Origin: an uncultured Oscillospiraceae bacterium
GTDB taxonomy: Bacteria > Bacillota > Clostridia > Oscillospirales > Oscillospiraceae
Direction of reading: 5' to 3'
DNA: 53,058 nucleotides
Assembly (NCBI GenBank): GCA_947589545.1
Contig: CANQBA010000022.1
Span: 1 to 53,058, forward strand
A model generated the notes under the pieces. The model saw only the letters and a program-made list of their open reading frames with translations, made no database searches and was not told the DNA's origin. How positions within the stretch are numbered: the first letter of the stretch is position 1; every line of letters starts with the position of its first letter. The position numbers and the translations under genes were made by a program. Positions 6,412 to 32,867 of the stretch are shown here, in pieces.

Positions 6412-7791
6412 TCAGCCCCGTGTGGGGATGGAGAGAAGCTCTCGAACTCTTTGCTCAAGTAATTTTTCCAACAGTTGCAGATGCTCCTCGGGCAGATTGA
6501 TGGACGGATGGCGGCGAAAACGAAATCCGATCATCCTTCGAAGCTCCGCCTTCTGTCTGCTTCCCATGACTGCGGCGCAGACCTCCTCATATGTCAAGTT
6601 GTACGGGTTGGTTCGGGTCTTGGCGTATTCGCGCAACGCCGTGAAATCGCGCAGCTCCCCGCTCCCCGCAAAGCACAGGAGGGAGAGCCCGTTGTCGAAA
6701 ATCGGGGCGGGCGCGATAATATTTCCCGTGCGGTTGTCCCGCAGCACCCCGAAATTGCCAAAGTGCCGGTCTTCATTCCAAATGAGCGCGTCAAACACCA
6801 GCATACTGCGAAGCTGTTCCCCAAATGCCGCACCGAGCCTTCTGTCAAGCGCATCGTAATAATCAAGGCACTTTTGAATATTCGTACCGCCTATGATCCT
6901 CCCGATGGGAACGTAGGAAACATCCGGACTTGTGAATATCGCGCATTTGGAGGCAGTGATACCTTTCCAATTCTCCAGCTCATATCGGACGGCGTTCAAC
7001 CGCATGGTCTCGGCGATTTGAGAGGCATAGTATTCCATGTATGGCTCACGTCCCGCGTTGGAGGCTCCACTGGTGCCCCCTTTGTAAAGAAATATGCCTT
7101 CGTTTTCAATAAATCTCCACGCTTTAGGCAGCATGCCGCCGGTGGTAAGCTCAGGTGAGGTGGTAAATGCGCGACGGGTTCCTCCAGCACCGGTATAGGC
7201 CACCAGTGCCAGAATATCTGAAAAGCGGTTCTCGTAAAGATTATACTGAGCGAAAGAACCGTTAAATCCCTCCGGCACCACCCAGTAGCTGTCATTCAGG
7301 GAGAGGCCCTTGCACACATCAATGATTCCCTTGGTGTCGTTGTGGCTCAGCCCAAGCGTCTTTAATATCTCATCCACAAACCGGCGGTTCTTGGGGATCA
7401 CCCGATGCTCAAGCCATCGAATAATACCGTCCCCGGTAAGCTCCAAATCAAGGGGGAAAAGATGGGTATATTCCCGGTGAACCTCTATGAGCTCCGCTGT
7501 CAGCCCCTCAAGTCCGCGCTTTTCCATGGAAAAGCGCATCAGCTCCGTGTCAAATATGCGCAGGCTGTAATGATTTCCTTCCATTATCGTGTCCTCCAAT
7601 CCGAACGTGACCGTCTTACCCAACACAGACGAGATCTTCAGTATCATATCAAGCGTAGGATTTTGAGCGCCGCTTTCAAGCCTGCATATGTTTGACCGCT
7701 GGGTACCGATCATACGTGCCAGCTCCGCCTGGGAGATACCCTTTTCCAGCCGTGCGGCTGCCAGCTGGGATATGATATCACGTCTGTCCAT
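6412..7791 (-). CDS. HTH-HipA fusion: XRE repressor joined to a HipA-like kinase
   Basis: Residues about 7-60 form an XRE helix-turn-helix (ISQAELARMIGTQRSNICRLES), as in the antitoxin HipB. The remainder resembles a HipA-type Ser/Thr kinase: a glycine-rich YKGGTSGASNAGREP near residue 236, the catalytic loop NEDRHFGNFG at 339-348 and the metal-binding DNG at 366-368. HipA toxins phosphorylate glutamyl-tRNA synthetase or related targets; the substrate here is unknown. Normally HipB and HipA are separate proteins, so this 459-residue chain would combine operator binding and kinase in one molecule. The start ATG has GAGGTG a few bases upstream. A palindrome at 7812-7831 sits in its own promoter. 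It could be a toxin, an anti-phage kinase or an ICE regulator. Confidence 0.8.
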   Translation of the reverse strand: MDRRDIISQLAAARLEKGISQAELARMIGTQRSNICRLESGAQNPTLDMILKISSVLGKTVTFGLEDTIMEGNHYSLRIFDTELMRFSMEKRGLEGLTAELIEVHREYTHLFPLDLELTGDGIIRWLEHRVIPKNRRFVDEILKTLGLSHNDTKGIIDVCKGLSLNDSYWVVPEGFNGSFAQYNLYENRFSDILALVAYTGAGGTRRAFTTSPELTTGGMLPKAWRFIENEGIFLYKGGTSGASNAGREPYMEYYASQIAETMRLNAVRYELENWKGITASKCAIFTSPDVSYVPIGRIIGGTNIQKCLDYYDALDRRLGAAFGEQLRSMLVFDALIWNEDRHFGNFGVLRDNRTGNIIAPAPIFDNGLSLLCFAGSGELRDFTALREYAKTRTNPYNLTYEEVCAAVMGSRQKAELRRMIGFRFRRHPSINLPEEHLQLLEKLLEQRVRELLSIPTRG

Positions 7792-7804: not shown

Positions 7805-7832
7805 ATCATAATGTTATCATAAATGATAACAA
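7805..7832 (-). promoter_or_regulatory. Promoter and palindromic operator of the HTH-HipA gene
   Basis: TGTTATCAT-AA-ATGATAACA is a perfect 9-bp inverted repeat at 7812-7831. On the minus strand TTGTTA (7827-7832) and TATGAT (7805-7810) are spaced by 16 bp, so the palindrome fills the spacer between -35 and -10. This is the expected layout for autorepression by the HTH domain encoded just downstream. Confidence 0.6.
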
Positions 7833-7864
7833 CATGCAAGCCCTATTTTGGGAGGAATACGATA

Positions 7865-9214
7865 TTGAAAAAAGCAGAAAATAATGAATCTATCTTGACC
7901 CCAGGCCCGGCACACGCCGTCTATGGGACAGTTAAAGCGGGAAAAGCCATTGCCGCCTCCGCGAAAGGCACGGCGGCGGGAGGGCCATATGGAGCCGCTG
8001 CGGGGTTGGCAGTGGCGGCAGGGCGGCATTCCGGGAAGCTTCTTGCCGGCGCCGTGCTCCTGCTGATGCTCCCAATCCTGTTTGTTGTTATGCTGCCTAC
8101 GCTTATATTCGGCGGGTTGAGCGATAGCCCAAGTCAGCCGATCCTTAACGACAATGACGCCATCGTTCAAAACGTAAATGATATTACCTTCGCGGTAAAC
8201 TCAGTTTTAGGCGAGGGAATTTCAGACGTCGAGGACAGGATCGCTCTGGACTTTGCCGGAACAAACGGCGACAACTATGAGATCGTCAATCCTTATGCCG
8301 ACGATATGACAAGCAATATTAACGCCTTTATTGCCCAATACTGCGCTTCCAAAGGTGAAACCTGTGCAGATATCTCTCTAACGGATCTGGAGGCAATCAT
8401 CCGGCAGAACAAGGGAAGTCTGTATTCCTACACGAGAACCAGTGAGACTCGGACGGTGGAGGATGATGACCCGGATACTGAGGATGTGGTTGAAACAAAG
8501 GAAGAGCTTTGGTACATCTACACGCTTTCATACAACGGAGAGGGGTATTTTGCGGACTCCGTATTTCATCTCTCCGATGAGCAAAAGGAGTTGGCATCCG
8601 ATTACGCCGAAAATCTTAGCCTATTTTTGGGCGACGGAATGCTCCAGCATACGCAATACGATGGAGTTACTCTATCCTCCTTGGGAGAAGTTCGTTTTAC
8701 GGACGGCGCCACAGAGGTTGTTTACTTCAATCAGCTGGACGAGCGCTGGGCCAACAAACCATACGGCACCGACAACATCGGCGGCTATGGGTGCGGCCCC
8801 ACCTCCATGTCCATTGTTATTTCATCCTTGACGAATGAAGTTGTTGATCCGGAGGAAATGGCAAAGTGGGCCTACGAAAACGGCGGCTGGTGCAGCAAAA
8901 GCGGTTCTTATCACTCTTTGATCCCCAAAACGGCCAAAGCGTGGGGGCTTCCGGTAGAAGGATGCAAGGCTTCTGAGCCACAGCGTATCGTTGACGCATT
9001 GGCCAACGGGAAGCTTGTGGTGGCGCTTATGCTGAAAGGGCATTTTACCTCCGGGGGACACTTTATTGTTCTCCGAGGTGTTCGGGATGGGAAAATCCTT
9101 GTTGCCGATCCCGCCAGCTACAGCCGAAGTAAGAAGCTTTGGGATCTGTCCATCATACTGAATGAAGCCAGCACAAGGGCCGGAGCCGGAGGTCCGTTTT
9201 GGATCATCGGTTGA
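7865..9214 (+). CDS. Membrane-anchored C39-type cysteine peptidase of the ICE
   Basis: The protein (449 residues) opens with a short cytoplasmic segment and one strong membrane span (LLAGAVLLLMLPILFVVMLP). An extracellular region follows, and the C-terminal third is a Peptidase_C39_2-like domain. That domain shows the cysteine in GGYGCGPTSMSIV, the histidine in GGHFIVLRGV and the aspartate in VADPAS. Such anchored hydrolases serve as the wall-opening component of Gram-positive conjugation systems, as lytic transglycosylases and CHAP/NlpC domains do elsewhere. TTG at 7865 is the likely start because GGGAGG (7850-7855) lies 9 nt upstream; an in-frame ATG further up has no ribosome site. It probably closes the transfer operon whose earlier genes lie before the window. 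Confidence 0.78.
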   Translation: MKKAENNESILTPGPAHAVYGTVKAGKAIAASAKGTAAGGPYGAAAGLAVAAGRHSGKLLAGAVLLLMLPILFVVMLPTLIFGGLSDSPSQPILNDNDAIVQNVNDITFAVNSVLGEGISDVEDRIALDFAGTNGDNYEIVNPYADDMTSNINAFIAQYCASKGETCADISLTDLEAIIRQNKGSLYSYTRTSETRTVEDDDPDTEDVVETKEELWYIYTLSYNGEGYFADSVFHLSDEQKELASDYAENLSLFLGDGMLQHTQYDGVTLSSLGEVRFTDGATEVVYFNQLDERWANKPYGTDNIGGYGCGPTSMSIVISSLTNEVVDPEEMAKWAYENGGWCSKSGSYHSLIPKTAKAWGLPVEGCKASEPQRIVDALANGKLVVALMLKGHFTSGGHFIVLRGVRDGKILVADPASYSRSKKLWDLSIILNEASTRAGAGGPFWIIG

Positions 9215-18700: not shown

Positions 18701-18729
18701 TTGACAACCACAATATATTGTGGTATAGT
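18701..18729 (+). promoter_or_regulatory. Strong sigma-A promoter with palindromic operator in the spacer (leader copy 1)
   Basis: TTGACA (18701-18706), a 17-bp spacer and TATAGT (18724-18729). The spacer contains CCACAATATATTGTGG (18708-18723), a perfect 16-bp palindrome. A repressor bound there would cover both promoter elements. The second copy at 34676 has the same layout with a palindrome degraded at two positions. Confidence 0.85.
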
Positions 18730-18735
18730 GAATAC

Positions 18736-18997
18736 GTAAATTGATTGTTTGTGCGTTCTCCGCTTAAAAGGCGGGGCCAGGTCCCGATGACTTGGGAACG
18801 GGGAGGCACCCGGATTGCACACGTTGTCAGGATTGTACGTTTGTCGGTTTGTCCGGCTCGCGGAAGGGCGGGCGGTAGCTGACGGTTATTGAAGGGACAG
18901 TATGTCCCTACGCATATTGCGGGAATGACGAAAGCTCTCCATTTTGGGGAGCGGAACACGGTTTTCACCGGGTCACGTCATTCCCGCCTATTTTTTT
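18736..18997 (+). ncRNA. Structured RNA leader, copy 1
   Basis: The core 18740-18839 matches 34715-34814 over 100 nt without gaps, with about nine differences. It can form a closing stem TGTGC/GCACA, a hairpin CTCCGC...GCGGGG, and a hairpin TCCC...GGGA. In copy 2 the first hairpin becomes CTCCGC...GCGGAG, so a G-U pair becomes A-U while pairing is kept. After the core come a GGGACA/TGTCCC hairpin and a terminator. Transcription should begin near 18736, 7 bp after the -10. It precedes the 19.05-31.4 kb operon. I do not recognise an established RNA family; it may be a leader, an antiterminator or a free small RNA. Confidence 0.75.
18919..18997 (+). terminator. Terminator at the end of leader copy 1
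   Basis: GCGGGAATGACG (18919-18930) pairs perfectly with CGTCATTCCCGC (18976-18987). An inner GCTCTCC/GGGGAGC hairpin lies between them, and seven T residues (18991-18997) follow. No new promoter is evident between this point and the next ribosome site at 19034. Confidence 0.85.
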
Positions 18998-19049: not shown

Positions 19050-19235
19050 ATGAAAAACAAATGGAAACGAAAGCGCGAACAGAGACCACCGGAGAAGCAC
19101 ATCCGGGGCAACAGTCGGCAAATGATGAAGGTCAAGATTCAAAAAATATTGACAGAGGAGGAAAGCGACGATGCCGCAGGATATGTCATACCGCCCTTCG
19201 GTCCTGGTGGAAACGGAAAAGCTGACGCGGCCTGA
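19050..19235 (+). CDS. Small basic protein at the head of the operon (61 aa)
   Basis: ATG 19050 has AAGGAG 10 nt upstream, better than ATG 19040, which touches that site. The product starts strongly basic (MKNKWKRKREQRPPEKH) and ends acidic then glycine-rich. It overlaps the YqaJ gene, whose ribosome site (GAGGAGG) lies inside it. It may be a leader peptide for translational coupling or a small nucleic-acid-binding protein; no family is recognised. Confidence 0.5.
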   Translation: MKNKWKRKREQRPPEKHIRGNSRQMMKVKIQKILTEEESDDAAGYVIPPFGPGGNGKADAA

Positions 19236-20214
19236 GTGGCTGGAATACCGGAGGCGCGGGATCGGCGGCAGTGACGCCGCGGCTGTCCTGGGGATCTCGC
19301 CGTTTCGGACAGCCAGAGATCTCTACTACGATAAGGTGGGGATCGTGACCGCCGACGACCGGGAAAACTGGGTTGCCCTTGAGTATGGCACGCTGTTGGA
19401 ACCGCTGGTGGCGCGGATATTCGTCGAAAAAACAGGCCTGAATATCTATCAGCGCAAGTGCCTTTTTCAGCATCCGCTTCATCCGTGGATGCTGGCGGAT
19501 CTGGATTACCTTGTGGAGCTTCCGGACGGAAGCACGGCCATTCTTGAGATCAAAACCACCAACTACAACGCGAAGGACAAATGGTGGCGCGACGGTGAGG
19601 AGGCCGTTCCCGCCTACTACGAAAGTCAGGGCCGCCACTACATGGCCGTCATGAACCTGGACAGGGTATATTTCTGCTGTCTCTACGGAAACAGCGAGGA
19701 TGACGCCCTGATCAGGCACATCGACAGGGATATGGATTATGAGCTGGAGCTCATCTCCCTGGAGAAGGATTTCTGGGAGAACAATGTCCTTGCCAAGTCG
19801 CCGCCCCCCTATCTTGAGGAAAACGGCGATCTCATTTTGGAGAGTTTGCGGCGGACACAGGGACAGTCACCCCCGGTCGATGGGCCTGTGAATTTCACCC
19901 AGACGCAATCAGCCAGGGTCGCCCGGTATTTGGAACTCCAGGAGGAAAAACGCCGGTGCGATACCGGCTCAAAGGCTGTGGAGAGTGAGATGAAACGGCT
20001 GAAGGCGTTGATCGTGGCGGATATGGGAGCAAGCTCCTCCGCTATCTCGGCCGACGGCTTTATCGTCTCATGGAAAGTCTCACGGACTCCGGGCATCTTC
20101 AAGGACGGGCTGGAAAGGCTGAGAGAGGTTCACCCGGAAATTTACAGCGAATATGTCACCTACTCAGAACGCAGAAATTTTAGCATCAGGCGTCCCAAAG
20201 AGGATGTGGCATGA
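19171..20214 (+). CDS. YqaJ/lambda-type exonuclease
   Basis: This 347-residue protein matches the YqaJ viral recombinase family. GGSDAAAVLGISPF near residue 31 is the typical N-terminal box. Catalytic residues of the PD-(D/E)xK fold appear as D112 (LADLDYLVE) and E126-x-K128 (LEIKTT), and the later QGRHYMAVM helix is also typical. Such enzymes digest one strand from double-strand ends so that an annealing protein can pair the exposed strand. That activity would suit circularisation, replication or recombination of the ICE. ATG 19171 follows GAGGAGGAAAGCGACG. The gene for its annealing partner should be nearby; the candidate is at 22609. Confidence 0.9.
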   Translation: MPQDMSYRPSVLVETEKLTRPEWLEYRRRGIGGSDAAAVLGISPFRTARDLYYDKVGIVTADDRENWVALEYGTLLEPLVARIFVEKTGLNIYQRKCLFQHPLHPWMLADLDYLVELPDGSTAILEIKTTNYNAKDKWWRDGEEAVPAYYESQGRHYMAVMNLDRVYFCCLYGNSEDDALIRHIDRDMDYELELISLEKDFWENNVLAKSPPPYLEENGDLILESLRRTQGQSPPVDGPVNFTQTQSARVARYLELQEEKRRCDTGSKAVESEMKRLKALIVADMGASSSAISADGFIVSWKVSRTPGIFKDGLERLREVHPEIYSEYVTYSERRNFSIRRPKEDVA

Positions 20215-20235
20215 GAAAAAGGAGGAAAAAGCGCC

Positions 20236-22512
20236 ATGCGAATTGTGGCGGTATATGACAAAACAGTATTTTACAACTCCACAACAAAATACGCGGTAAT
20301 ACAGATGAAAACAGCGGACATCATGGTTCCGCAGGACGCACGAAATCCGTACAAATTCAGGGATCACCTGATCCGTTTTACCGCCGTGGGATATGATCTG
20401 CCCCAGTCGGATTCGGTAAAGCTGGATCTGGAAGGCCAGTGGGTCAAGGGAAAATACGGCTCTCAATTCCAGGTGGAACGGTGGAAGGAAATCGCCCCGA
20501 CCACCGTAGAGGGAATCCGAAATTATCTTGCGTCCGGTTTGCTGAAAGGGATTGGCGGTGCTATCGCCAACGCCATTGTTCAGCGGTTCGGGACCCGCTC
20601 CCTTGAGGTGCTGGAAAATGACCCTGACCGCCTCCTTGAGATACGGGGAATTACACCGGACAAGCTGGAGGAGATCAAAACAGGGTACGCGGAGAGCCAG
20701 ACCATGCGTGAACTGATGACTTTGCTGGGGCCTTTTCAGGTTACGCCGAACACCGCCATGAAGATCTACGAATATTTTGGGGTCGAAGCGGCGGAGCTTC
20801 TGCGGGAGAGCCTGTACCGGCTTTGCGAGGTACCCGGCTTTGGTTTCAAAAGAGTGGCTGCCATTGTCCGAAAGTCCGGCGGCAGTCTCCGTGACCCGGT
20901 TCGTGTTCGCGGCGCCCTGTTCTACACGCTGGAAAAGGCCAGAAGCGAAAGCGGACACCTCTTTCTGGAAACGGATCATATGCTGAGAAGCGCGTTGAAG
21001 CTCCTCAATGAATCTATGGAATCGGGAGAGATCCCTGTGGATCAGGAACAGGTGGAGCGGGAACTGGAAAACATGATCCTGAGCAATGTGGTGGTGTCGA
21101 GTGACAGTAAGCTCTATCTTCCGCAGGTGTTCCGTCAGGAGACAGAGACGGCGTACAAGGTAGCGCAAATGGTTATGGAGATCCCAAAGCCCGTGGATCC
21201 TCGCCAGGTGATGCAGGAAGTCAGAGGGAAGCTTGGCATTACCCTGTCTCCCAGACAAATCGAGGGTGTGGAGACGGTCTTTCGGCACAACCTGTCCATC
21301 ATTACGGGTGGACCAGGTACAGGGAAAAGCACGATCCTCCGCGCCGTGGTGGAAGCATACCGTATGCTCTTCCCCGACAAAAAGATCGCTCTGGCGGCGC
21401 CCACCGGAAAGGCCAGCCGGCGCATGGCGGAGACCACGGGAGTGGAGGACGCACAGACCTTGCGCAGCTTGCTGGGACTCCACGGCGACGGCGACGGGCG
21501 GAAGAAAAGGCAGCCGCTGGAGGCCGGCCTTCTCATCGTGGATGAGACATCCATGGTAGATATGTGGTTGGCGCATCAGCTGTTTTCAAGGCTTACCCCC
21601 GGAACCAAGGTCCTGCTGGTGGGCGACGCCGACCAGTTGGAGAGCGTGGGGGCAGGAAATGTGTTTCACGAGCTCATTGCGAGCGGAATTGTCCCTGTGA
21701 CTGTGCTGGATCGGATATTCCGACAGGCTCAGGACAGCCGAATTGCCTACAACGCCAGATTCATCAATGAGGGCAACGGAGAACTCCTTTACGGACCGGA
21801 TTTTTCTTTTGTCCCTGCGGCGACCCAGGAGGAGACCGCTGAGACGATCCGCCGCCTCTATCGGGAGGAGGCCGCCAGAATCGGTGTCGGGCATCTGCAG
21901 ATCCTCTCTCCCTTCCGTTCGGACGGAGCGGCGTCCTCAAACAGTCTGAATACCGCCATACGGGAGGATGTCAACCCGGATGAGGAATGCAAACCGGACG
22001 TGATATATGGGAGCAAGAGCTTCCGGCTCCACGACCGGGTGATCCAAATCAAGAACAACTACAACATGGTCATCTATGACCGGCAGGGCAATCAAATCGG
22101 AAAGGGCGTTTTCAACGGCGATGTAGGCACGATACGGGAGATCCGTCCCGATACCGTCATTGTCAGATTTGACGGGCGGTACGCCAAGTACCCACTGGAG
22201 GCTCTGGAAGAATTGGAGCTGTCCTACGCCATGACGATCCACAAGGCGATGGGCTCGGAGTACGATACGGTCATCATTCCGCTTTCGGCGGCCCATCGGA
22301 TCCTGCTGAATCGGAATCTTCTGTATACCGCCGTGACCCGCGCCAAAGGTCGGGTGATCCTGGTGGGACAGAAGAAAGCTTTGTACATGGCGATATCCAA
22401 AACGAGAAAGGGAAAGCGGAACACGCTCTTGGGTGAGCGGGCGAGACTTTACCTTCAGGAATTGAACCGCAGGGCGTACTCTCCTAACGAAGCGTTGAAG
22501 CGGGCGGGATGA
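20236..22512 (+). CDS. recD2: RecD2-like ATP-dependent DNA helicase
   Basis: This is an SF1B 5'-3' helicase of the RecD2/YrrC type, 758 residues. The N-terminal part carries helix-hairpin-helix-like segments (LKGIGGAIANAIV, LEIRGITPDKLEEI, LCEVPGFGFKRVA). The motor has Walker A GGPGTGKST near residue 357, motif II LIVDETSMVD near 433 and the C-terminal UvrD_C_2 signature YAMTIHKAMGSEYDTVIIPL. LLYTAVTRAKGRVILVG follows. It starts after AGGAGGAAAAAGCGCC, 21 nt past the YqaJ stop, so the two likely act in one pathway of end processing or replication of the element. Confidence 0.93.
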   Translation: MRIVAVYDKTVFYNSTTKYAVIQMKTADIMVPQDARNPYKFRDHLIRFTAVGYDLPQSDSVKLDLEGQWVKGKYGSQFQVERWKEIAPTTVEGIRNYLASGLLKGIGGAIANAIVQRFGTRSLEVLENDPDRLLEIRGITPDKLEEIKTGYAESQTMRELMTLLGPFQVTPNTAMKIYEYFGVEAAELLRESLYRLCEVPGFGFKRVAAIVRKSGGSLRDPVRVRGALFYTLEKARSESGHLFLETDHMLRSALKLLNESMESGEIPVDQEQVERELENMILSNVVVSSDSKLYLPQVFRQETETAYKVAQMVMEIPKPVDPRQVMQEVRGKLGITLSPRQIEGVETVFRHNLSIITGGPGTGKSTILRAVVEAYRMLFPDKKIALAAPTGKASRRMAETTGVEDAQTLRSLLGLHGDGDGRKKRQPLEAGLLIVDETSMVDMWLAHQLFSRLTPGTKVLLVGDADQLESVGAGNVFHELIASGIVPVTVLDRIFRQAQDSRIAYNARFINEGNGELLYGPDFSFVPAATQEETAETIRRLYREEAARIGVGHLQILSPFRSDGAASSNSLNTAIREDVNPDEECKPDVIYGSKSFRLHDRVIQIKNNYNMVIYDRQGNQIGKGVFNGDVGTIREIRPDTVIVRFDGRYAKYPLEALEELELSYAMTIHKAMGSEYDTVIIPLSAAHRILLNRNLLYTAVTRAKGRVILVGQKKALYMAISKTRKGKRNTLLGERARLYLQELNRRAYSPNEALKRAG

Positions 22513-22608
22513 CAGATGCAGGTGCCGGGGAAACCGGAACATGCGTCTTTTTTTGTTGTCCACAACGGTGTATCCGTTAAAATACATTATTTGAAAGGAG
22601 ATCCAGAA

Positions 22609-23598
22609 ATGAACAAAAACACGATCATCAGCACAGTCCCCGCCGCAGGAGCCCTCCACAAGGTGCCGGGCTTCGATCCTTTGAAGTGCCTGAAAAGGGT
22701 CGTTGGTTCCAACGGAAAAACAACCTGGCGGTTGGATCCCGCCTACCAGCGTCTTTGGTTCCGCCTGGCGTGTCCAAACGGCAGAATGCTCCTGACCCCG
22801 TTGAGAGTCACCGATCAGCTTGCGATCTTTGAGGCGAAGGTGTTCCTCAATAGGGACGACCCCGTTCCCGCCGGAAGCTTCACCGCAAATAAATCGGCGC
22901 AGGACACACGAAACTACATCCGTGACGCGCAGGAGGAGGCCCTCAAGGAGGCGCTGGACAGTGCCGGCTTCGGCATCCAGCTCTGTGATTTGACCCATAC
23001 AGCCGCGGATGATGCTCCCCTTTTGCCCGCACCTCCAACAAAGGCGAAAGAAACTGTCCCCGTTCCGACGGGCAGAACCTCCAAGGCTGTCCAGCCTGAC
23101 GCCGGGGAACCGGCCCCCGTCCCGCCGGAGAACGCCGCTCCCACTCTCGCGTCACCTGAACCCGCTCCAATCGAGGAGCCGAAGGAAGAGATTCCCCAAG
23201 GAACCTCCGATGAAGCGCCTCAGGAGGCCGTTGGTACCGAAGGCAGTCAGTCATCCCTGCTGTCGATGCTGGAATCGCCTCCGTCGGCGGAGAAAATCAC
23301 GGTTCAGCGATCCCCCGAAACGCCTACCGCCATCACGGAGTTGGAAGTCGAATCCACTGAGCCGCCTTATACGGATGACACGCCCATAGAGCAGATCCTC
23401 CAGTGTATGACCATGGAGGAGGCCGGGAATGTCATGGTGCAAAAAGGCACCTGCAAGGGGATGAGAATGGAGGAGATTGCGAGGCGCCGGCCCTCCAGCC
23501 TCCATTTCTTCCTCACCCAATTCTGCGAGTGCGGCAACATTCAGAAGGCCGCCGCGCATCTGCTGATTCAGGATCTGGAGCTGAAAAAGGCAGGATAA
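22609..23598 (+). CDS. Unknown ICE protein; possible single-strand annealing protein
   Basis: ATG 22609 follows GAAAGGAG by 8 nt; the frame is open further upstream but without a site. Residues about 15-110 form a compact domain containing DPAYQRLWFRLACPNGRML and, near its end, AQEEALKEALDSAGFG. The latter resembles the A-x-x-x-AL-x-x-x-G helix of Rad52/Erf-type annealing proteins. A long Pro/Glu/Ala-rich linker (about 130-270) and a helical C-terminal domain (TMEEAGNVMVQKGTCKGMRM) follow. Its position two genes after a YqaJ exonuclease fits the exonuclease-annealer pairing of phages. The assignment is inference; I cannot name the family. Confidence 0.6.
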   Translation: MNKNTIISTVPAAGALHKVPGFDPLKCLKRVVGSNGKTTWRLDPAYQRLWFRLACPNGRMLLTPLRVTDQLAIFEAKVFLNRDDPVPAGSFTANKSAQDTRNYIRDAQEEALKEALDSAGFGIQLCDLTHTAADDAPLLPAPPTKAKETVPVPTGRTSKAVQPDAGEPAPVPPENAAPTLASPEPAPIEEPKEEIPQGTSDEAPQEAVGTEGSQSSLLSMLESPPSAEKITVQRSPETPTAITELEVESTEPPYTDDTPIEQILQCMTMEEAGNVMVQKGTCKGMRMEEIARRRPSSLHFFLTQFCECGNIQKAAAHLLIQDLELKKAG

Positions 23599-23648
23599 AC
23601 CCGCCGCGCCGCCCCGCGTTAGATGGAAAGGAGTGAGGCACTCATATC

Positions 23649-24770
23649 ATGTCGGATTTCCCCTTTACCATTATGGACGTGGCTTACCTCCTTCGCCTGA
23701 ATATCAGGCGAAGGGGGAATCCCCTGGTGGTGTACGCTGACTGTCCCATCTGCGGCGAGCACCGTGGAAGGATGGGCCTTTACCCGCAAACGAATACATG
23801 GCATTGTTTTCACTGCGGGGAGAGCGGCGGGATGCTTCCTCTTTACGGCAAGATCCACGGAGTCAGCAATGCCCAGGCTTACCGTGAGATTTGCGATGCC
23901 CTGTCGGTGGGCGGATTCCCTGCGGAAAGCGATGCGCCGGCAGTCACCGGCACCGGGAAACAGCCGCAGGGGGCTCCCGCTTCGGACAGAGCTCCTGAAC
24001 GGGAGATCCATCGGACGCTGACAGCCCTGCTCTCCTCGCTTACACTGACGCAAGCCCACAGGGAGCATCTGCGCACGGTGCGAGGACTGACGGATGAGGA
24101 GATTGACGGCTTTGGCTTCAAAAGCACCCCGCCGTACCGCCTTTGTCGGGAGCTTACTGAGGATCTCATGGAGCGGGGGCTTCGTGTGCAGGGCGTTCCC
24201 GGCTTCTATGTGGATGACAACGGTGGATGGACTGTCAAGTTCTATCAGCGCACATCGGGGTTTCTCATTCCTCAACGGGGCGTGGACGGTCTTTTGCACG
24301 GCTTGCAGATCCGTTTGGACAACCCCATCCGGGATGATAACGCTCCTCCTGAGAAGAAGGGAGCAAAATATCTGCCCCTTTCCTCAGCCGGTAAAAAGCT
24401 CGGCGTCACTTCCGGAAGCCCGATTCATTTTGTCGGAGATCCGCACGCGCGTGTGGTGTATGTGACAGAGGGGGCGCTGAAGGCGGACATAGCCAACGCC
24501 CTGACGGGGCGGACCTTCGCGGCCACCGTCGGAGCTAACAACACGGGCGGCCTTGATGAGCTGTTTTCCTTCCTCAGTCGGAACGGCACCGAGGAGATCA
24601 TTGAGGCGGAGGACATGGACAAGCACCACAATGTGGGTGTTTATCGCGGGGCGTGCGCCGTACACAATTTGGCATTGAAGCACAAAATGATCTGCCGCCA
24701 GCTCAACTGGGATCCCGCTTACAAGGGAATCGACGATTGGCTGTTGGCGCTTTATCAAAAAAAGAAATGA
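23649..24770 (+). CDS. Primase-like protein: CHC2-type zinc finger with DUF3854/Toprim-like domain
   Basis: The N-terminus has a DnaG-type zinc finger, YADCPICGEHRGRMGLY followed by WHCFHCGESGG. The C-terminal half contains VYVTEGALKADIANAL and EIIEAEDMDKHHNVGVY, like the Toprim-related DUF3854 domain that often replaces the DnaG catalytic core in mobile elements. A polar linker joins them. It would make primers for lagging-strand synthesis during ICE replication or after transfer, but it lacks a full helicase-interaction domain. It starts 9 nt after GAGTGAGGCACTCATATC-like sequence, so the ribosome site is weak. Confidence 0.82.
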   Translation: MSDFPFTIMDVAYLLRLNIRRRGNPLVVYADCPICGEHRGRMGLYPQTNTWHCFHCGESGGMLPLYGKIHGVSNAQAYREICDALSVGGFPAESDAPAVTGTGKQPQGAPASDRAPEREIHRTLTALLSSLTLTQAHREHLRTVRGLTDEEIDGFGFKSTPPYRLCRELTEDLMERGLRVQGVPGFYVDDNGGWTVKFYQRTSGFLIPQRGVDGLLHGLQIRLDNPIRDDNAPPEKKGAKYLPLSSAGKKLGVTSGSPIHFVGDPHARVVYVTEGALKADIANALTGRTFAATVGANNTGGLDELFSFLSRNGTEEIIEAEDMDKHHNVGVYRGACAVHNLALKHKMICRQLNWDPAYKGIDDWLLALYQKKK

Positions 24771-24788
24771 AATAAGGAGTAATCTTAT

Positions 24789-25649
24789 ATGGGAGCATTT
24801 TCAGAGATGGATATTGAATTCCATGAAGGAAACACGTCAGCGGACGGCTTTGATACCTCCGCCTTTGACGACGACGGGGTGGATGTGGATGTTGAGGCTG
24901 ATCCTTCACCGGAAAATATACCCGCAGAAACCGTGCCAGTACAGGATGCCACCGCTTCCGCTTCGGTGAGTGCGGCTGAGGAAACGGAGGAAGCAAAGCG
25001 TCAGGCGCATGAGGAGGCCGAGGCAAGGAGGAAGGCCGAATTTGACGCCCGGCAGCGTAAAAAACAGGCAGATCTTCAGGCAAAGCTTGACCGCCTGGAC
25101 GCTATGAGCGACGAAGAGGTGATGGCCGCCTCTATGAAGCGGGTCAGCGAGGATACCGAAAAGCTGACCCGTCGCAACATGAAGGAGTGCGTTGCCGAGT
25201 ACATCCAGACCTTGTGCATTGAGGACCCCGCACTTGCGAGAAAAGCAATGCACCCCCGCAAAAGCATGGTCCACTGCTTCCAGTATATCAGTCGGAAAGC
25301 ATGGGAATATGTGCAGGATGAGCTGAAAGCAAACGGAATACAGCCCGGTACCGGTTCACAGGGCTACGGCTGTGACGTACCGGATGACCTGTGCTACCAA
25401 TGGGCTGTGGACTACTTCAATGATCCTGATGTCAAGGAAGATAAGGAGGAAGAAGAGAAGTTCGTTCCAAATCCCTATCGCGGCAGTTCCGGTTCAAAAT
25501 CCAAAGGCTCTGCGAAAGGGAAGGCAAAACCCGGAGAGAAAAAACCTGAAGCACCAAGGAAAGAGGATAAACCTGTCCCCAAGCCTGCGGATGACATGAG
25601 CCAGATTTCCTTCGGGGACTTTCTGATGCCGGAGGAGAAGGCCGGATGA
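24789..25649 (+). CDS. PcfK-like protein (AcrIIA9-related family)
   Basis: An acidic N-terminus and a coiled-coil (EEAEARRKAEFDARQRKKQA) lead into a conserved core at residues about 135-215. It reads MKECVAEYIQTLC, then HPRKSMVHCFQYISRKAWEY, then VPDDLCYQWAVDYFND. That pattern matches PcfK-like proteins (Pfam PcfK). Some members of that family are reported to inhibit Cas9 (AcrIIA9). The tail is Lys/Pro-rich. It sits just before pcfJ, the classic PcfK-PcfJ order of pCF10-type elements. Whether this copy blocks CRISPR is unknown; a basic replication or transfer role is equally possible. ATAAGGAG precedes the start. Confidence 0.75.
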   Translation: MGAFSEMDIEFHEGNTSADGFDTSAFDDDGVDVDVEADPSPENIPAETVPVQDATASASVSAAEETEEAKRQAHEEAEARRKAEFDARQRKKQADLQAKLDRLDAMSDEEVMAASMKRVSEDTEKLTRRNMKECVAEYIQTLCIEDPALARKAMHPRKSMVHCFQYISRKAWEYVQDELKANGIQPGTGSQGYGCDVPDDLCYQWAVDYFNDPDVKEDKEEEEKFVPNPYRGSSGSKSKGSAKGKAKPGEKKPEAPRKEDKPVPKPADDMSQISFGDFLMPEEKAG

Positions 25650-26188
25650 TTGCGTATAAGGGTTTTGACCGGGGACTCATCTGCCGTGGCTACCAGTTTG
25701 TGATGGGACTCAACGTGACCGATCAAGCCAACTGTGCCGCGAACGGATTCCACTGTGCGGAGGATCCGCTGGATTGTCTGACCTATTACAGCAACATAAG
25801 ACGTTCCGAATACTGCCTGGTGAATGCCGGCGGCGACGTTGACGAGGACGAGCATGATTCCAAAATCGCGTGTACAGAGCTCACCATCATTAAAAAGCTT
25901 GACCTATCCGAGCTTGTCCTGCACGCTCTGGCGTACATAGCGGATCATCCGGGCCGCAAATGGAACAGATATGTTCAACTGAACCGTGGCCGTGCGGAAA
26001 ACGGCTTCGTGATCGTTCGAGGCATCGATCCTTTGGCCTCCGGGAAAAAAGGAGACGTTCTGGGCTTTGCCAAAGAGTCGCCGGACGGCGAAAAGATCGT
26101 CCAGATTGCCATGGTGCGGGTGGATGGTGAAAAAATCATTTCCGATCGCTGGTATGACACTGATTTAATAGAAAGAAAGGCGGTGTAA
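25646..26188 (+). CDS. DUF7666-like ICE/phage protein
   Basis: The beginning, MIAYKGFDRGLICRGYQFVM, followed by a GFHCAEDPLDCLTYY block and EYCLVNAGGDVDED, matches a small family seen in phages and mobile elements (DUF7666, as I recall it). Function is unknown. The central HALAYIADHPGR and the C-terminal MVRVDGEKIISDRWYD complete a compact globular protein. It overlaps the PcfK-like gene by four bases (ATGA) and is followed two bases later by pcfJ, so the three are translated as a unit. Confidence 0.65.
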   Translation: MIAYKGFDRGLICRGYQFVMGLNVTDQANCAANGFHCAEDPLDCLTYYSNIRRSEYCLVNAGGDVDEDEHDSKIACTELTIIKKLDLSELVLHALAYIADHPGRKWNRYVQLNRGRAENGFVIVRGIDPLASGKKGDVLGFAKESPDGEKIVQIAMVRVDGEKIISDRWYDTDLIERKAV

Positions 26189-26190
26189 AC

Positions 26191-28380
26191 GTGAAGAAAA
26201 AGGAACTGCTGCAGATGCGGCGGTTGATGGCCACATCCAAAATGATAAAAATCGCGAAGGAAGATGTGCCTCAGAATACTAAGTCCAATGATTATTACTC
26301 CAAATCTTATCAGGCGCCGCGCAAATACCAATTATATCTGCGCTGCCAAGTAGAGAACGGCATTTTGAAAGCGGCGCTGTATTATCCGGATAGTTTGAGA
26401 TCAGAAGGACGGCTGCCATCTTATATGGTCTACATAGACGGCGAGGCCAGGCGGTTTGTCACCTACGACTGCATCAATAACAAATGGTTGGAGGCTAAGG
26501 TAGACAGGTTGGATTGGCCCCATTATCTTCCCTGTTGGCCGAGTACATGGATCCCCGACAGGGATTCCAAAATGGTGGGACAGTATCTTGGCTCGGAGAA
26601 AACGGGGTATGACGCGATTCTTGAATACCAGATGAGGCTGCGGCTTGAAGAGCGTTATAAACGCTATCGGAAAGAGACGGCCAAGTGGGATGCGGACATG
26701 GCTTTGACCCCCGCCCTTCCCAAGGATTGGGGTCGATGGGTGGATAAGGTGGGCATCCCTCAGAATTTCATATTCTACGAGTACCGCAGAGGCGGCGCCA
26801 AGACCGGCTACTGCACATTCTGCGGTAAGGACGTCCCGATCCAAGAGAAACCTCACCACTGCAAGGTCGGTCACTGTCCGCGCTGCCGGCATGAGATCAC
26901 ATATAAGTCCCTTGGCAGACTGGGCCGGTTTATGGACACCAATGAAGTCAGCATATACCTGATTCAGCCAAGACCCGACGGCTTTGTTGTCAGGGAATTT
27001 TGGGCACGGCGCATGTACTCAAAGGAGACATACAGACAGCCGGAAATATTCTGCTCCGAGCATTGGCGCGTGATCTATGACGGCAAGTTATCTCCCCGTA
27101 CATACTTCTGGGGGGTTTACAAGCAAAGCACAAACCGGTGGATCGCCGGAGAGCCAAACTGTAATTGGATGAGTCCTAACAGAATTTACGCCACGCATGG
27201 CAATCAGGACGGACGGGTCTATGGAAAGACACTGCCCCACCTTGTCAGAAATGCGTTGAAACATACAGGACTCATAGAATGGCTGCGTGCTCGCGGCTTC
27301 ACAGGAAATCCGGACAGGTATCTGGCACTAATCAAAAAATACCCGCGTTTTGAACAGCTTTGGAAGGCCGGTCTCCCAAAACTGACAGAGGAAAGCTGGA
27401 AACAATACTATTACTTAAATGAAATCATCCGCTATCCTCAAGCATCCAGTTTGACAAAAGCATTGGGAATCGATAAGCAGGATCTTTCACGGCTGCGCAA
27501 CCTCAATGGAGGTCATCTCATCCTGCGATGGCTTCGGGAGGAAAAGAATAGCGGCCAGGTGATTCCCGATGAATCACTGGTGTGGCTTGAGGAAAACAAA
27601 ATCGAGCCTGTCCATGTCAGCTTCATCCGGCAGAAGATGAACGTTCCTCAGATTTGCCATTATCTCAGGCGGCAGGCACTGGAGAGCGGCGAGACTATAA
27701 AGCAGGTACTCACCACCTGGCAGGACTACCTTTCCATGGCTGAACAACTGGGGATGGATACGGGAGACGAGATCATCTATCGGGTGAGGCTCCTGCGCCA
27801 GAGGCATGACGAGCTTGTTCTGCGCTGTAAACAGGAGGATCTTAAAAAACAGGCCGACGACATACTCAAGGCCCATCCAAATCTGGACGGCATTTGCAAA
27901 TCGCTCAAGGAAAAGTATGAGTACGCAAACGACGACTTCGCCGTTGTCGCTCCCTGCGGTGTGTTGGACATTCTTGTAGAGGGTGACGCGCTCTGTCACT
28001 GCCTTAGCCGTAGTGACAGATATTGGGACAGGATCGAGACGCATGAGTCTTATATTCTCTTCCTCCGCCGTGCGCCTGCCCTGAATGTTCCGTATTACAC
28101 CCTGGAGGTGGAGCCGGACGGCACCGTGCGGCAAAAGCGCACCAAGTATGACCGCCAGGAGGCCGACATTGAGAGTGCCAAAGTGTTCCTCACAGAATGG
28201 CAGGGCGTCATCAACAAGCGCCTTTCCATCGGAGACCGCAGGAAGGCCGCGAAGAGCCGCATCTTGCGTGAGCAGGAGTTTGATCAGATGCGCCGGGATA
28301 ATGTCATCATCCACACAGGTGAGCTTTCCGGTCACAGACTTGTGGACGTGCTGACTGCCGACTTGATGGAAGCGGCGTAA
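26191..28380 (+). CDS. pcfJ: PcfJ-like protein
   Basis: This 729-residue protein has a zinc-ribbon near residues 205-235 (YCTFCGKDV...HCPRCRHE). The PcfJ domain near residue 585 onwards shows the conserved LVEGDALCHCLSRSDRYWD and later YYTLEVEPDGTVRQKR. PcfJ proteins accompany conjugative plasmids and ICEs of Gram-positives; the biochemical role is unknown. GTG 26191 is the start, with AAAGGCGG upstream. The gene ends 10 bp before a strong hairpin. Confidence 0.82.
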   Translation: MKKKELLQMRRLMATSKMIKIAKEDVPQNTKSNDYYSKSYQAPRKYQLYLRCQVENGILKAALYYPDSLRSEGRLPSYMVYIDGEARRFVTYDCINNKWLEAKVDRLDWPHYLPCWPSTWIPDRDSKMVGQYLGSEKTGYDAILEYQMRLRLEERYKRYRKETAKWDADMALTPALPKDWGRWVDKVGIPQNFIFYEYRRGGAKTGYCTFCGKDVPIQEKPHHCKVGHCPRCRHEITYKSLGRLGRFMDTNEVSIYLIQPRPDGFVVREFWARRMYSKETYRQPEIFCSEHWRVIYDGKLSPRTYFWGVYKQSTNRWIAGEPNCNWMSPNRIYATHGNQDGRVYGKTLPHLVRNALKHTGLIEWLRARGFTGNPDRYLALIKKYPRFEQLWKAGLPKLTEESWKQYYYLNEIIRYPQASSLTKALGIDKQDLSRLRNLNGGHLILRWLREEKNSGQVIPDESLVWLEENKIEPVHVSFIRQKMNVPQICHYLRRQALESGETIKQVLTTWQDYLSMAEQLGMDTGDEIIYRVRLLRQRHDELVLRCKQEDLKKQADDILKAHPNLDGICKSLKEKYEYANDDFAVVAPCGVLDILVEGDALCHCLSRSDRYWDRIETHESYILFLRRAPALNVPYYTLEVEPDGTVRQKRTKYDRQEADIESAKVFLTEWQGVINKRLSIGDRRKAAKSRILREQEFDQMRRDNVIIHTGELSGHRLVDVLTADLMEAA

Positions 28381-28389
28381 AAAAACAAA

Positions 28390-28419
28390 GACTGGCGTAC
28401 CGTTTTCGGCACGCCAGTC
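28390..28419 (+). terminator. Hairpin between pcfJ and ligA, no T-run
   Basis: GACTGGCGT-A-CCG, a TTTT loop, then CGG-C-ACGCCAGTC form a 13-bp stem with one mismatch. GATTTCATTTG follows, so termination would be inefficient. It could be an mRNA processing or stability element, since the ligase gene seems to belong to the same transcript. Confidence 0.5.
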
Positions 28420-28447
28420 GATTTCATTTGAAGAAAGGGGAAAACAT

Positions 28448-30442
28448 ATGTCACAAGACAACGCATATTTTGACCGGATTCGGGCGCTTACCGCTCAGCT
28501 GAACCGGTACAGATACGAATATTACAGTCTCAACGCTCCGACAGTGAGCGATGAGGTATACGACAGGTTCTTTGATGAACTCAAATCTTTGGAACAGGAG
28601 TTGGGGATCAGGATGGGAAACTCCCCGACTCAGACTGTGGGATGGCCCGCTGTGGAAAAGCTCCAAAAGACCGTTCATACCATCCCGCTCTTGTCTATGG
28701 ACAAGACAAAACGTGTGGAGGATCTCTGTTCATTCATGGGAGACATGAAGGTTATGCTCATGCCGAAGCTGGACGGGCTTACCGTCAAGTTAACCTATCT
28801 GGGCGGAAGCCTTCAGGAGGCCGCTACCCGCGGGAACGGCAATGACGGAGAAGTCATCACACACAACGTCCGGGGCATCAGCGGTATTCCCACGCAGATC
28901 CCTCACAAGGGCAGGCTGGTGGTTACCGGTGAGGCGTTTATTCGGACAGACGATTTTGAGGCTATGAAGGCGAAACTTCTGGACAGCGGCGGACAGCCTT
29001 ATCGGAACGGGCGGAATCTGGCGGCGGGTTCCGTTCGACTGCTCAAGTCAGAGGACTGCCGGAATCGGCATGTGACCTTCATACCGTTCAGCGTTCTGGA
29101 GGGCTTTGATGAGCTGGAGAACAAATCCGACAGGCTGAGGGCTCTGGATCCGCTGGGATTTCAACGCTGTCCCTTCCTCGTCTCCAACAGAAAGCTGACG
29201 AAGGAAGAGATGGAATCAGGCATTCAAAGAATACGGAAGGTGGCGGAAAATGCCAGGCTTCCTATAGACGGCGTCGTTGTGACCTACAACAGCGTTGCGT
29301 ATTCCAAAGGCTGTGGACGCACCGGGCATCACTATAAGGATGGAATCGCCTTCAAGTTTGAGGATGATCTGTCCGAAACAAAGCTCCGCAGTATTGAATG
29401 GACGCCCTCCCGCTCCGGTGAGATCGCCCCTGTCGCCATATTTGAGACGGTGGAGATCGATGGCTGCGCCGTGTCCCGCGCCAGTCTCCACAACCTGTCT
29501 TTCATCGAGGATCTGGAGCTGATGCCCGGAAACCGCATTCTGGTCTCCAAGCGAAACATGATCATCCCCCACGTGGAGGAGAATCTGGATCGTGGCGGCT
29601 TCGATATGGACAGGCTGGTCATCAAAAACTGTCCCTGCTGCGGCCAGCCCACACGCATCCATGAAAACAACGGCACAAAGACGTTGTTCTGCGACAACCC
29701 AGACTGCGCCACCCGGCGGTTAAAACAGTTTGTCCACTTTGTCGGCGAGAAGGCCATGAACATCGAAGGGCTCTCCGAAAATACTCTGGAGAAGCTGATA
29801 GGTCGGGGGCTGTTAAAGGATCGTCTGGACATCTACCGACTGGATGAACACCGGGACGTTATACTCGACATTGACGGCTTTGGGGGAAAATCCTGGCAAA
29901 AGCTTTGGGAGGCAATTGGGCGTAGTCGTGACACCACCTTTGAGCGGTATCTGATCGCCATGGATATTCCCATGATCGGCAACACAGCCAGTCGCGCGCT
30001 TGCCAGGCGTTTTCACAGCAGTCTCGACGAATTTGAGGCGGCTGTCTGCGGCAGCTTTGATTTTACGACCCTCCCCGACTTTGGTGGAACTCTGCATCAG
30101 AACATCACCGACTGGTTCAGCCGGGAGGAAAACTGGTATCTGTGGTGGGAGCTTCGCAATTTCGTCACTGTCCGTCCACCGGAGACAGAGGCTGTCGAAG
30201 TGTCCGGCGGTAATCCGTTTGCCGGTATGACCATCGTAGTCACCGGCAAGGTGGAGCCATACACCCGGAATGAGATCAACGCGAAAATTGAATCTCTCGG
30301 CGCTGTCGCCGGCAGCTCGGTCACGCGAAAGACAAATTACCTTATTTGCGGCGACAACGCCGGAAGCAAGCTCGACAAGGCCAGGGAGCTTGGCGTCCCG
30401 GTATTGAAGCCGGCCCAATTTTTTGAAATGGCCGGAATATAA
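28448..30442 (+). CDS. ligA: NAD-dependent DNA ligase
   Basis: All LigA domains are present in 664 residues. There is an N-terminal YYSLNAPTVSDEVYDRFFDEL segment that binds NAD, and the adenylation motif K107-LDG (MPKLDGLTVK). The OB fold is followed by a four-cysteine zinc finger (CPCCGQP...CDNPDCATRR), helix-hairpin-helix repeats, and a C-terminal BRCT (FAGMTIVVTGKVEP). It seals nicks using NAD. A second ligase beside the chromosomal one suggests the ICE supplies its own sealing enzyme for replication or circularisation. ATG 28448 follows GAAAGGGG. Confidence 0.95.
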   Translation: MSQDNAYFDRIRALTAQLNRYRYEYYSLNAPTVSDEVYDRFFDELKSLEQELGIRMGNSPTQTVGWPAVEKLQKTVHTIPLLSMDKTKRVEDLCSFMGDMKVMLMPKLDGLTVKLTYLGGSLQEAATRGNGNDGEVITHNVRGISGIPTQIPHKGRLVVTGEAFIRTDDFEAMKAKLLDSGGQPYRNGRNLAAGSVRLLKSEDCRNRHVTFIPFSVLEGFDELENKSDRLRALDPLGFQRCPFLVSNRKLTKEEMESGIQRIRKVAENARLPIDGVVVTYNSVAYSKGCGRTGHHYKDGIAFKFEDDLSETKLRSIEWTPSRSGEIAPVAIFETVEIDGCAVSRASLHNLSFIEDLELMPGNRILVSKRNMIIPHVEENLDRGGFDMDRLVIKNCPCCGQPTRIHENNGTKTLFCDNPDCATRRLKQFVHFVGEKAMNIEGLSENTLEKLIGRGLLKDRLDIYRLDEHRDVILDIDGFGGKSWQKLWEAIGRSRDTTFERYLIAMDIPMIGNTASRALARRFHSSLDEFEAAVCGSFDFTTLPDFGGTLHQNITDWFSREENWYLWWELRNFVTVRPPETEAVEVSGGNPFAGMTIVVTGKVEPYTRNEINAKIESLGAVAGSSVTRKTNYLICGDNAGSKLDKARELGVPVLKPAQFFEMAGI

Positions 30443-30457
30443 AGAAAGGAGCGCAAT

Positions 30458-30823
30458 ATGGCAGATTACAGAAGGTATAAAACCGAAACGCTCAAAAAAA
30501 TGCTGGACACCACTAAAGCCAGATATTATGCAGAGACAGAAAAGCCCTGTGGAAACTGGGGAGACGGTATGCGCCGTTCCAGGCTGCCGCAAAACAAAGC
30601 CTGGGAACGGGCAAAGGACAGGTACGAGGCTATCAGCGCAGAGCTGAATCGGCGTACAACCGAGGACAAGTGCATAAACTGTGTCCACAATGTCGGTGTT
30701 GAGGAGATGAATTGCGACCACTATTGCTACGGTGTCGAGGAAATCGCGGATGAGGGCCGGATAGTCGTCCGTTGTGATGACTACAAAAAACGTGCTGACA
30801 AAGAGGTGCGTGGCAATGAGTGA
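30458..30823 (+). CDS. Small Cys-rich ICE protein (121 aa)
   Basis: A basic helical N-terminus (MADYRRYKTETLKKML) leads into a C-terminal segment with five cysteines (CINCVHN...NCDHYCYG...VRCDDY), which could hold a zinc. Ribosome site AAAGGAG lies 7 nt before the start, and the stop overlaps the next start (ATGAGTGA). I do not recognise the family. Confidence 0.65.
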   Translation: MADYRRYKTETLKKMLDTTKARYYAETEKPCGNWGDGMRRSRLPQNKAWERAKDRYEAISAELNRRTTEDKCINCVHNVGVEEMNCDHYCYGVEEIADEGRIVVRCDDYKKRADKEVRGNE

Positions 30824-31427
30824 CAGGATCCTTGTGAAAGTATTTTCCGATGGGGACTTTATCGGATTTAAAACCTTCTCCCGGAAGTGGAAGTCAAGTC
30901 CCAGATTTTTGGTTTCACGGCATGAGCTTGATGTCCTTGAGCGCGAGAATTCCGTTATCAGCAAGGATATAAATTCTTTTGCTGTTCTGCGGCGGAATAC
31001 CGCCGACGGTACTCTGAGTATTGAGTTCTCATGGCTGCGAAGGAGAAGCCATGACCTCTTTGGGCGCAGTGAAGCGGTGACCCTCCCTTATGACAAGCTG
31101 GTGGAATTCATATACGCCAGCACTCAGGAAGACGGGCCGAAAACGTGGAGTACGCTCTCTCTCGAAAGGACAGCAGAGCCTGAAATAATATTCAACGACA
31201 CTGCAGGACTTCGCAAGTGCCTGGAAAACAGGATTGTCAGGAAAAAGCTTTCCCACGCTCTCCGTGACTGCTTCTGCGGCTACGAGCGGGTCATTCTCTA
31301 TAACGATTTCGTCCCATACTCCTTTTTCTTCCGCACCTTTATTTCAGGAGAACTGTATATCAGTGGAGGACTCATATTCCATAACTGCGGAGACATGTCA
31401 AAAGCCTACTACTCCATACATACCTGA
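30816..31427 (+). CDS. Unknown ICE protein (203 aa), last gene of the first long operon
   Basis: ATG 30816 overlaps the previous stop. The sequence reads MSDRILVKVFSDGDFIGFKT at the start and has a mixed alpha/beta character with no membrane span. No catalytic motif is seen. About 100 bp later a terminator ends the 12-kb operon. Confidence 0.65.
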   Translation: MSDRILVKVFSDGDFIGFKTFSRKWKSSPRFLVSRHELDVLERENSVISKDINSFAVLRRNTADGTLSIEFSWLRRRSHDLFGRSEAVTLPYDKLVEFIYASTQEDGPKTWSTLSLERTAEPEIIFNDTAGLRKCLENRIVRKKLSHALRDCFCGYERVILYNDFVPYSFFFRTFISGELYISGGLIFHNCGDMSKAYYSIHT

Positions 31428-31527
31428 AGCTGAGTCGGCCAAATATCCGTTCCAAATCCAGACGACAAAGACCGATATACCTTGTAACTGATGGCAGTAA
31501 AAAACAATCACAGCAATACACATTTTA

Positions 31528-31564
31528 AGCCTGCATTTCCATAAAGGGGATGCAGGCTTTTTCA
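31528..31564. terminator. Intrinsic terminator between convergent units
   Basis: AGCCTGCAT (31528-31536) pairs with ATGCAGGCT (31550-31558), followed by TTTTTC. It stands between the end of the rightward operon and the end of the leftward pair. From 31428 to 31612 I see no gene. Confidence 0.75.
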
Positions 31565-31612
31565 TTATTTATATTAGGATCAATCCATATTCGTGGCTGC
31601 CCGCTTTTCGTG

Positions 31613-32083: not shown

Positions 32084-32085
32084 TT

Positions 32086-32523: not shown

Positions 32524-32540
32524 AAAAGTCCCCCTGAATC

Positions 32541-32598
32541 AGTATATCGCATTGTGGATATAATCACAATATTGTCTTGAAGAAATCCGCCCTATAAT
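32541..32598. promoter_or_regulatory. Divergent promoter region with CACAAT/ATTGTG half-sites
   Basis: On the minus strand TTGTGA (32564-32569) and TATACT (32541-32546) are 17 bp apart and would drive the SLOG pair. On the plus strand TATAAT (32593-32598) is preceded by TTGTCT (32572-32577), 15 bp away, for the XRE gene. ATTGTG (32551), CACAAT (32565) and ATTGTC (32571) repeat the half-sites of the palindrome in the RNA-leader promoters at 18708 and 34683. Confidence 0.55.
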
Positions 32599-32634
32599 TA
32601 GTTTGATTTATTATGAGCGATTTGGGGTGGCGAC

Positions 32635-32829: not shown

Positions 32830-32856
32830 CCGGCCACATTGGATGGCCGGTTTTTC
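32829..32856 (+). terminator. Intrinsic terminator after the XRE gene
   Basis: ACCGGCCA (32829-32836) pairs with TGGCCGGT (32844-32851), followed by a T-run. The stem begins inside the XRE stop codon. Confidence 0.9.
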
Positions 32857-32867
32857 TGTCTCTGTTG

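Follow-up and report, generated by a model that had tools for sequence, protein, structure and literature searches.

The 53,058-nucleotide stretch of DNA analysed here (the window; contig CANQBA010000022.1 of assembly GCA_947589545.1, from an uncultured Oscillospiraceae bacterium) carries two copies of a structured RNA of ~100 nucleotides (nt), the core, each of which follows a promoter and heads a long array of genes on the same strand (the operons op1 and op2). The core is a new RNA family, the job of which is probably of a known type, and we consider it likely that it acts as a cis-acting processive antiterminator. In fact, processive antitermination, carried out by the RNA alone or together with a partner, appears the simplest reading of the family and its pairing, the place next to a promoter, the synteny, and the sense-strand hairpins, which resemble terminators and are followed by T-tracts.

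A comparison of the two copies bears out what an earlier note on this DNA, which proposed no mechanism, had claimed. The cores are 91% identical over 101 nt, the 65 nt that follow them (flanks that had been called unrelated) are 50% identical, and the matching TTGACA-17-TATAGT promoters both end 7 nt ahead of the core, at the head of long same-strand gene arrays. The interval singled out in the note, 18736-18997, also spans a second structure, a Y-shaped terminator (described below). The two window copies are the only core matches in the 3.8-Mb genome, and a 51-base core pattern gave 2 matches versus 0 expected (100 shuffles). The folding energy of the single sequences is ordinary (z -1.93 and -0.93) and the case therefore rests on the comparison of relatives. 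Promoters and cores are positioned as follows, with scores from the covariance models R1 and R2 introduced below:

18701 to 18729, forward strand: promoter of copy 1, TTGACA-17-TATAGT, matching the consensus at 11 of 12 positions and separated from the core by 7 nt
18737 to 18839, forward strand: RNA core copy 1, op1 leader, 103 nt; 119.5 bits with R1, 91 bits with R2
34676 to 34704, forward strand: promoter of copy 2, TTGACA-17-TATAGT, matching the consensus at 11 of 12 positions and separated from the core by 7 nt
34712 to 34814, forward strand: RNA core copy 2, op2 leader, 103 nt; 120.3 bits with R1, 92.7 bits with R2

Relatives were recovered with a pattern of 25 bases taken from the core's 3' end. 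Its matches, 9 stretches among IMG/VR contigs and 50 among GTDB species genomes, are by title mostly Oscillospiraceae and their relatives and in some cases Lachnospiraceae or only Clostridia. Pooled with earlier matches, these yielded 53 distinct core sequences. RNAalifold returned only the two closing helices (P0 and P1; 10 pairs, no double-sided change) from a first MAFFT alignment of 50 sequences, because the inner hairpins P2-P4 had been misaligned; 16 of the 50 sequences and covariance models took the place of this alignment. Model R1, built from 16 sequences, matched 67 places in 63 sources, and R2 was built from the R1 matches.

The fold consists of the closing helices P0 (UUGAU with GUYAR) and P1 (UGUGCG with UGCACA), which enclose the hairpins P2, P3 and P4; the number of enclosed hairpins is up to three (one member, L007, has two only) and the core length varies from 71 to 107 nt among the family matches. 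In an alignment of 66 distinct sequences fitted to the covariance model, a procedure that flatters pairing figures, 94.4% of the cells pair and 19 of the 29 pairs show double-sided changes, in 349 cells versus 100.9 in shuffles and at most 60 when the structure was slid along the alignment. A MAFFT alignment of 16 sequences, which was not model-fitted and for which the structure was taken from the folds of its members, gave 10 pairs and 21 double-sided cells versus 5.4 in shuffles. Measured against the shuffled and slid controls, the covariation is strong and supports the earlier claim of a structured RNA. The closing helices are near-invariant: in the 66 sequences P0 shows zero double-sided changes and P1 a single pair with four, and both helices are supported more by folding and by G-C/G-U variation than by covariation. 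The change from U-G to U-A reported in the note is present and corresponds to P0 columns 5/95 of alignment A3 (UG 11, UA 5). Near-invariant unpaired bases include an ACG run after P1 and a UUGUA tail.

A coding role for the core was considered and rejected. An open reading frame (ORF) of 99 amino acids (aa) on the minus strand overlaps core 1, but the changes between relatives preserve RNA pairs, and core lengths of 71-107 nt without triplet steps speak against the conserved translated frame that, according to the earlier note, would have contradicted a functional RNA.

The core could not be assigned to a known family in the note, and searches of Rfam 15 agree. At gathering thresholds a group II intron was the one match in the whole window, at E values up to 10 nothing overlapped the cores in either leader, and in 15 diverse member loci tRNA alone was matched; an exact match to a housekeeping RNA, the outcome that would have spoken for a familiar molecule, is absent. 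No description of the core RNA turned up in the open-access literature (preprints were outside its scope), by which absence from print is not established. With R2 the family was found in 37 of the 400 genomes of the window's family (30/246 in the good-quality subset; 19 of 106 genera), 23 of these 37 having at least two copies, as well as in 2 of 391 genomes of a class sample, both in the window's genus, and in 2 of 398 of a phylum sample, the window's own among them. Considering the strict search filters, these counts are lower bounds. A strict 34-base pattern had no match in viral contigs. With blastn, 50,697 phage records gave no match and 72,556 plasmid records a single partial one.

Some single loci deserve mention. 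One copy (L009, 1537-1633) lies on a 247,546-bp record that is labelled a circular plasmid of Subdoligranulum variabile, and the family may thus also ride on a possible large plasmid. Locus L060 holds a head-to-tail pair of cores (7534-7629 and 7810-7909), the downstream copy with its own promoter, and in L058 two cores (2290-2386 and 4497-4590) face each other ~2 kb apart.

A rule-based scan of the 64 distinct copies with sufficient upstream DNA, for which there was no shuffle control, found a promoter in 55, every one of them with a spacer of 17 nt, and in 53 of these 55 the -10 box ends 6-7 nt ahead of the core. With such spacing the core should start at about +1. The spacers themselves (18707-18723 and 34682-34698 in the window) carry, across the family, a near-palindrome (CACAATATATTGTG and variants) that resembles an operator common to both promoters. 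In addition, a 14-bp palindromic hairpin at 34277-34307, terminator-like on both strands, lies upstream of a helix-turn-helix gene and copy 2.

Downstream of the core, predicted terminators abound. Scanning the 65 copies with 260 nt of downstream sequence at a loose threshold of -12 kcal/mol gave at least one terminator in 62 and at least two in 48, versus 23 and 5 on the reverse strand of the same stretches. A single match is common by chance at this threshold; a tandem pair is not. The window has the following:

34819 to 34869, forward strand: terminator T1 of the op2 leader, a hairpin of -32.7 kcal/mol, then a T-tract
34992 to 35038, forward strand: terminator T2 of the op2 leader, a hairpin of -29.3 kcal/mol, then a T-tract, ending 40 nt short of the first op2 start codon
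18919 to 18997, forward strand: Y-shaped terminator of the op1 leader, -38.1 kcal/mol (stem 18919-18987, T-tract to 18997)
38562 to 38596, forward strand: strong hairpin inside the op2 array that resembles a terminator, -31.5 kcal/mol, 16 pairs of which 11 G-C

We compared ten elements, i.e. that of the window and those of G270, G145, G202, G275, G031, G337, G291, G125 and G369. All 20 copies in these elements precede op1 or op2 genes on the same strand, with one copy heading op1 (DNA metabolism) and the other heading op2. In op2, T1 starts 3-9 nt past the core and is followed by T2 in 10/10 elements; the distance from the end of T2 to the start codon of a gene for a 251-aa protein is 31-46 nt in the window, G270, G145, G202 and G291 and, going by ATG starts, 34-35 nt in G031, G337 and G125. 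In seven of the ten, T1 and T2 are separated by an SSB-like gene (judged by eye). A third op2 terminator is located 28-29 nt before a gene for a sigma-like protein in G145, G202, G031 and G337, and G125 has a similar hairpin ahead of that gene. In op1, the Y-shaped terminator, found via a conserved stem motif, lies at +77 to +82 past the core in all ten elements, preceded by a simple T1 in seven. Single hairpins of -20 kcal/mol or stronger, counted by hand over the op2 spans, number 25 in the sense and 3 in the antisense direction. The long stem of the Y-shaped terminator retains the motif GCGRGAATGAC in every element, which may be a site in its own right.

It is conceivable that the leader binds a protein of the element to govern mRNA decay, processing or translation, and that the hairpins are processing or stability signals rather than terminators. 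A protein site could be formed by the bases at the two ends of the core, which are near-invariant, and the terminator function of the hairpins is a prediction. Nevertheless, tandem hairpins of about -25 to -37 kcal/mol with T-tracts, biased so heavily to the sense strand of op2, resemble terminators, and we consider such a leader hardly to be expected.

With a promoter of its own and a terminator directly past the core, most copies also look like a free-standing small RNA gene, which would consist of promoter, core and T1 and produce a transcript of ~155 nt that acts in trans, the genes of the operon having promoters of their own. However, T2 lies so close to the first start codon of op2, both in the window and in the four elements that share its 31-46 nt range, that there is no room for a promoter, and both copies head the same operons in 10/10 elements; we regard a small RNA gene as unlikely. 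In fact, if T1 and T2 terminate, op2 can be reached by read-through alone, because no promoter fits past T2.

The proximity of core and T1 in op2, together with the conserved unpaired bases in the core tail, would fit an attenuator or riboswitch as well, in which the core refolds on a signal with the 5' arm of T1 and governs that terminator alone. Pairing between core and T1 proved not specific: the own T1 arm was better than swapped arms in 14 of 52 cases, with means of -16.9 versus -17.2 kcal/mol. As cores show no preference for the T1 arm of their own leader, we consider such refolding unlikely. Moreover, core and T1 evolve separately (see below), T2 and the inner terminators would be left unhandled, and the genes downstream belong to the element and form no metabolic pathway. 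We therefore judge an attenuator or riboswitch very improbable.

In the case of processive antitermination, transcription would begin at or 1-2 bases from the first base of the core, and the core would be made first. It would fold into a stem of two helices topped by as many as three hairpins and stay on the elongating RNA polymerase, either directly or via a partner. The core-bound polymerase would become resistant to intrinsic terminators and would pass those before the first gene and those further inside the operon. Transcripts that enter from elsewhere, without core RNA, would stop at the terminators, and the element would be insulated. What we infer here is the start site, termination at the hairpins, its suppression by the RNA and the action via RNA polymerase. 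The arrangement is that of the functional class of RNA-based processive antiterminators: the RNA leads the transcript, and past it lie terminators that have to be crossed for the operon to be transcribed, with both start and terminators being predicted.

Several observations weigh against processive antitermination. Nine of the 64 copies lack a promoter by rule, several of which show TTGACA with an off-consensus -10 box, and 3 of the 65 copies are without a predicted terminator within 260 nt. Chance alone gives at least one terminator in about half of the shuffles, and among 61 upstream stretches 28 likewise contain one. The earliest ATG of the 251-aa op2 gene falls inside T2 in two elements, G275 and G369, which makes the start position of this gene ambiguous. 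Finally, the sense excess in the op1 spans is modest, with 13 versus 5 hairpins of -20 kcal/mol or stronger (hand count).

Unexpectedly, the two cores of an element are more alike than the cores that head the same operon in other lineages. Mean core identity is 84.5% within an element versus 64.5% for the same operon in other lineages (our own grouping of near-identical elements), whereas for the 65 nt after the core these figures are 55.4% and 60.5%. The adjoining terminators follow the operon, unlike the cores. The within-element identity exceeds the best same-operon match of another lineage in 8/10 cases for the core, 2/10 for the promoter and 0/10 for the T1 stretch. On a tree of the cores the op1/op2 labels need 7 changes versus 7.1 for shuffled labels, and the cores of G291, G369 and G275 pair by element (support 100/98, 96/96 and 93/99); most other forks of this tree are poorly supported, and long branches were flagged by the tool. 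Exceptions are the pairs of G031 (75%) and G337 (73%), for which the best same-operon core of another lineage is 80% and 79% alike, respectively. Two extra copies in G031, C40 before op2 genes and C24 before op1 genes, would run counter to the pattern as well, being 66% alike, if they belong to one element.

Given orthologous operons, it seems that the two cores of an element have become uniform, either through gene conversion or because selection made both suit a partner that they share. G369 holds two elements, the cores of which are 63-68% alike between the elements and 78% alike within each pair. The presence of two core types in one host implies that the host polymerase alone does not set the type, which argues against adaptation to host RNA polymerase as the sole cause of the likeness. 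It is possible, and we propose it tentatively, that there is an element-specific antitermination code in which the RNA works with a partner of its own element, the leaders of one element sharing a dialect from which other elements in the same host differ. Such a code would be a specificity system like that of lambda N and nut, on a new RNA fold and in conjugative elements of gut bacteria. Because the two cores of an element are so alike, whether the element encodes a partner can be put to a direct test.

The genes headed by the two cores in the window are:

19171 to 30442, forward strand: op1 genes for a YqaJ/RecE-like nuclease, RecD2, a 360-aa protein, CHC2, PcfK, DUF7666, PcfJ and an NAD-dependent DNA ligase (called with Pfam, PHROGs for the nuclease, and synteny)
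35078 to 38554, forward strand: op2 genes kept elsewhere, for a 251-aa protein, DUF932, a 280-aa protein, a sigma-like protein of 167 aa and a 90-aa protein (Pfam, synteny)

In op2, more genes on the same strand continue to 45746. Across the elements the op1 and op2 proteins are 24 to 98% identical to those of the window; in the synteny comparison of the ten elements, G125 and G369 yielded no DUF7666 and G125 no 90-aa gene. The RNA-headed operons start with genes of DNA metabolism or unknown genes, not with a secretion system. The sigma-70-like protein (37818-38321) matches TIGR02937 with 35.1 bits, below the cut-off, and Pfam Sigma70_r4_2 also below the cut-off; it is retained in the nine other elements, often directly past a strong terminator.

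The elements that carry the RNA are conjugative. A gene for a VirD4-type coupling protein lies 11-26 kb from a core copy on the same strand in eight pairs from seven genomes (G125, G369 twice, G291, G337, G031, G270 and G145), 60 kb away in G202 and on other contigs in G275. The window's own contig has no VirD4-type gene, and its placement in a conjugative element rests on its near relative G270, which does have the coupling-protein gene. Elsewhere in the window, at 1552-3228, a reverse-transcriptase ORF followed by the group II intron match lies beside genes for SpaA-type surface proteins.

To our knowledge, few RNA-only processive antiterminators are known. Given its clear covariation, its many natural variants, its built-in target terminators and its presence twice in each element, a family of ~100 nt such as this would offer a compact system in which to study the reprogramming of RNA polymerase by RNA. 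The family suggests that conjugative elements of gut Oscillospiraceae are insulated by a combination of termination and antitermination.

If antitermination holds, the core would work like put, EAR, conAn2 and canT. The put RNA of phage HK022 is an antiterminator that needs no phage protein and is made near the promoter, which would be a likeness to the core, but its fold of two hairpins is probably unrelated; R2 had no match in positions 25000-40751 of HK022, the part of the record searched, which need not include the put sites. EAR, an Rfam family, likewise represents RNA-based processive antitermination in Bacillota, whereas it serves the chromosomal eps exopolysaccharide operon of B. subtilis and the core matches no Rfam family. 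Systems with LoaP, a NusG paralogue encoded with its target operon, differ as well, in that the elements carry no NusG paralogue: 9 of 9 genomes (G270 left out) have one NusG each and none within the element stretches. Both put and EAR are named in PMC11658703 and PMC8955417.

According to PMC8955417, conAn of plasmid pLS20 also comprises a protein, ConAn1, and serves the conjugation operon. The core would resemble conAn2, as described there, in being an antitermination RNA that starts a long operon with inner terminators in a Gram-positive conjugative element, whereas op1 and op2 begin with the genes of DNA metabolism or unknown genes mentioned above. R2 had no match in the whole pLS20 record (65,774 bases) at E values up to 1, a search by which a distant relation could be missed, and op1 and op2 of the ten elements share no protein at their front, small ones included, ConAn1 itself not having been searched for.

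For canT of Tn916 it was established by experiment that it acts in cis and processively, an activity carried by a 452-bp fragment and left unexplained by the predicted folds of this fragment, as stated by Wirachman and Grossman (2024, PMC11658703). Going by that description, the core with its covarying fold of 71-107 nt is set apart from canT. Nevertheless, in both cases a Gram-positive conjugative element has an RNA that fronts the transcription of the element, with terminators downstream that are to be passed.
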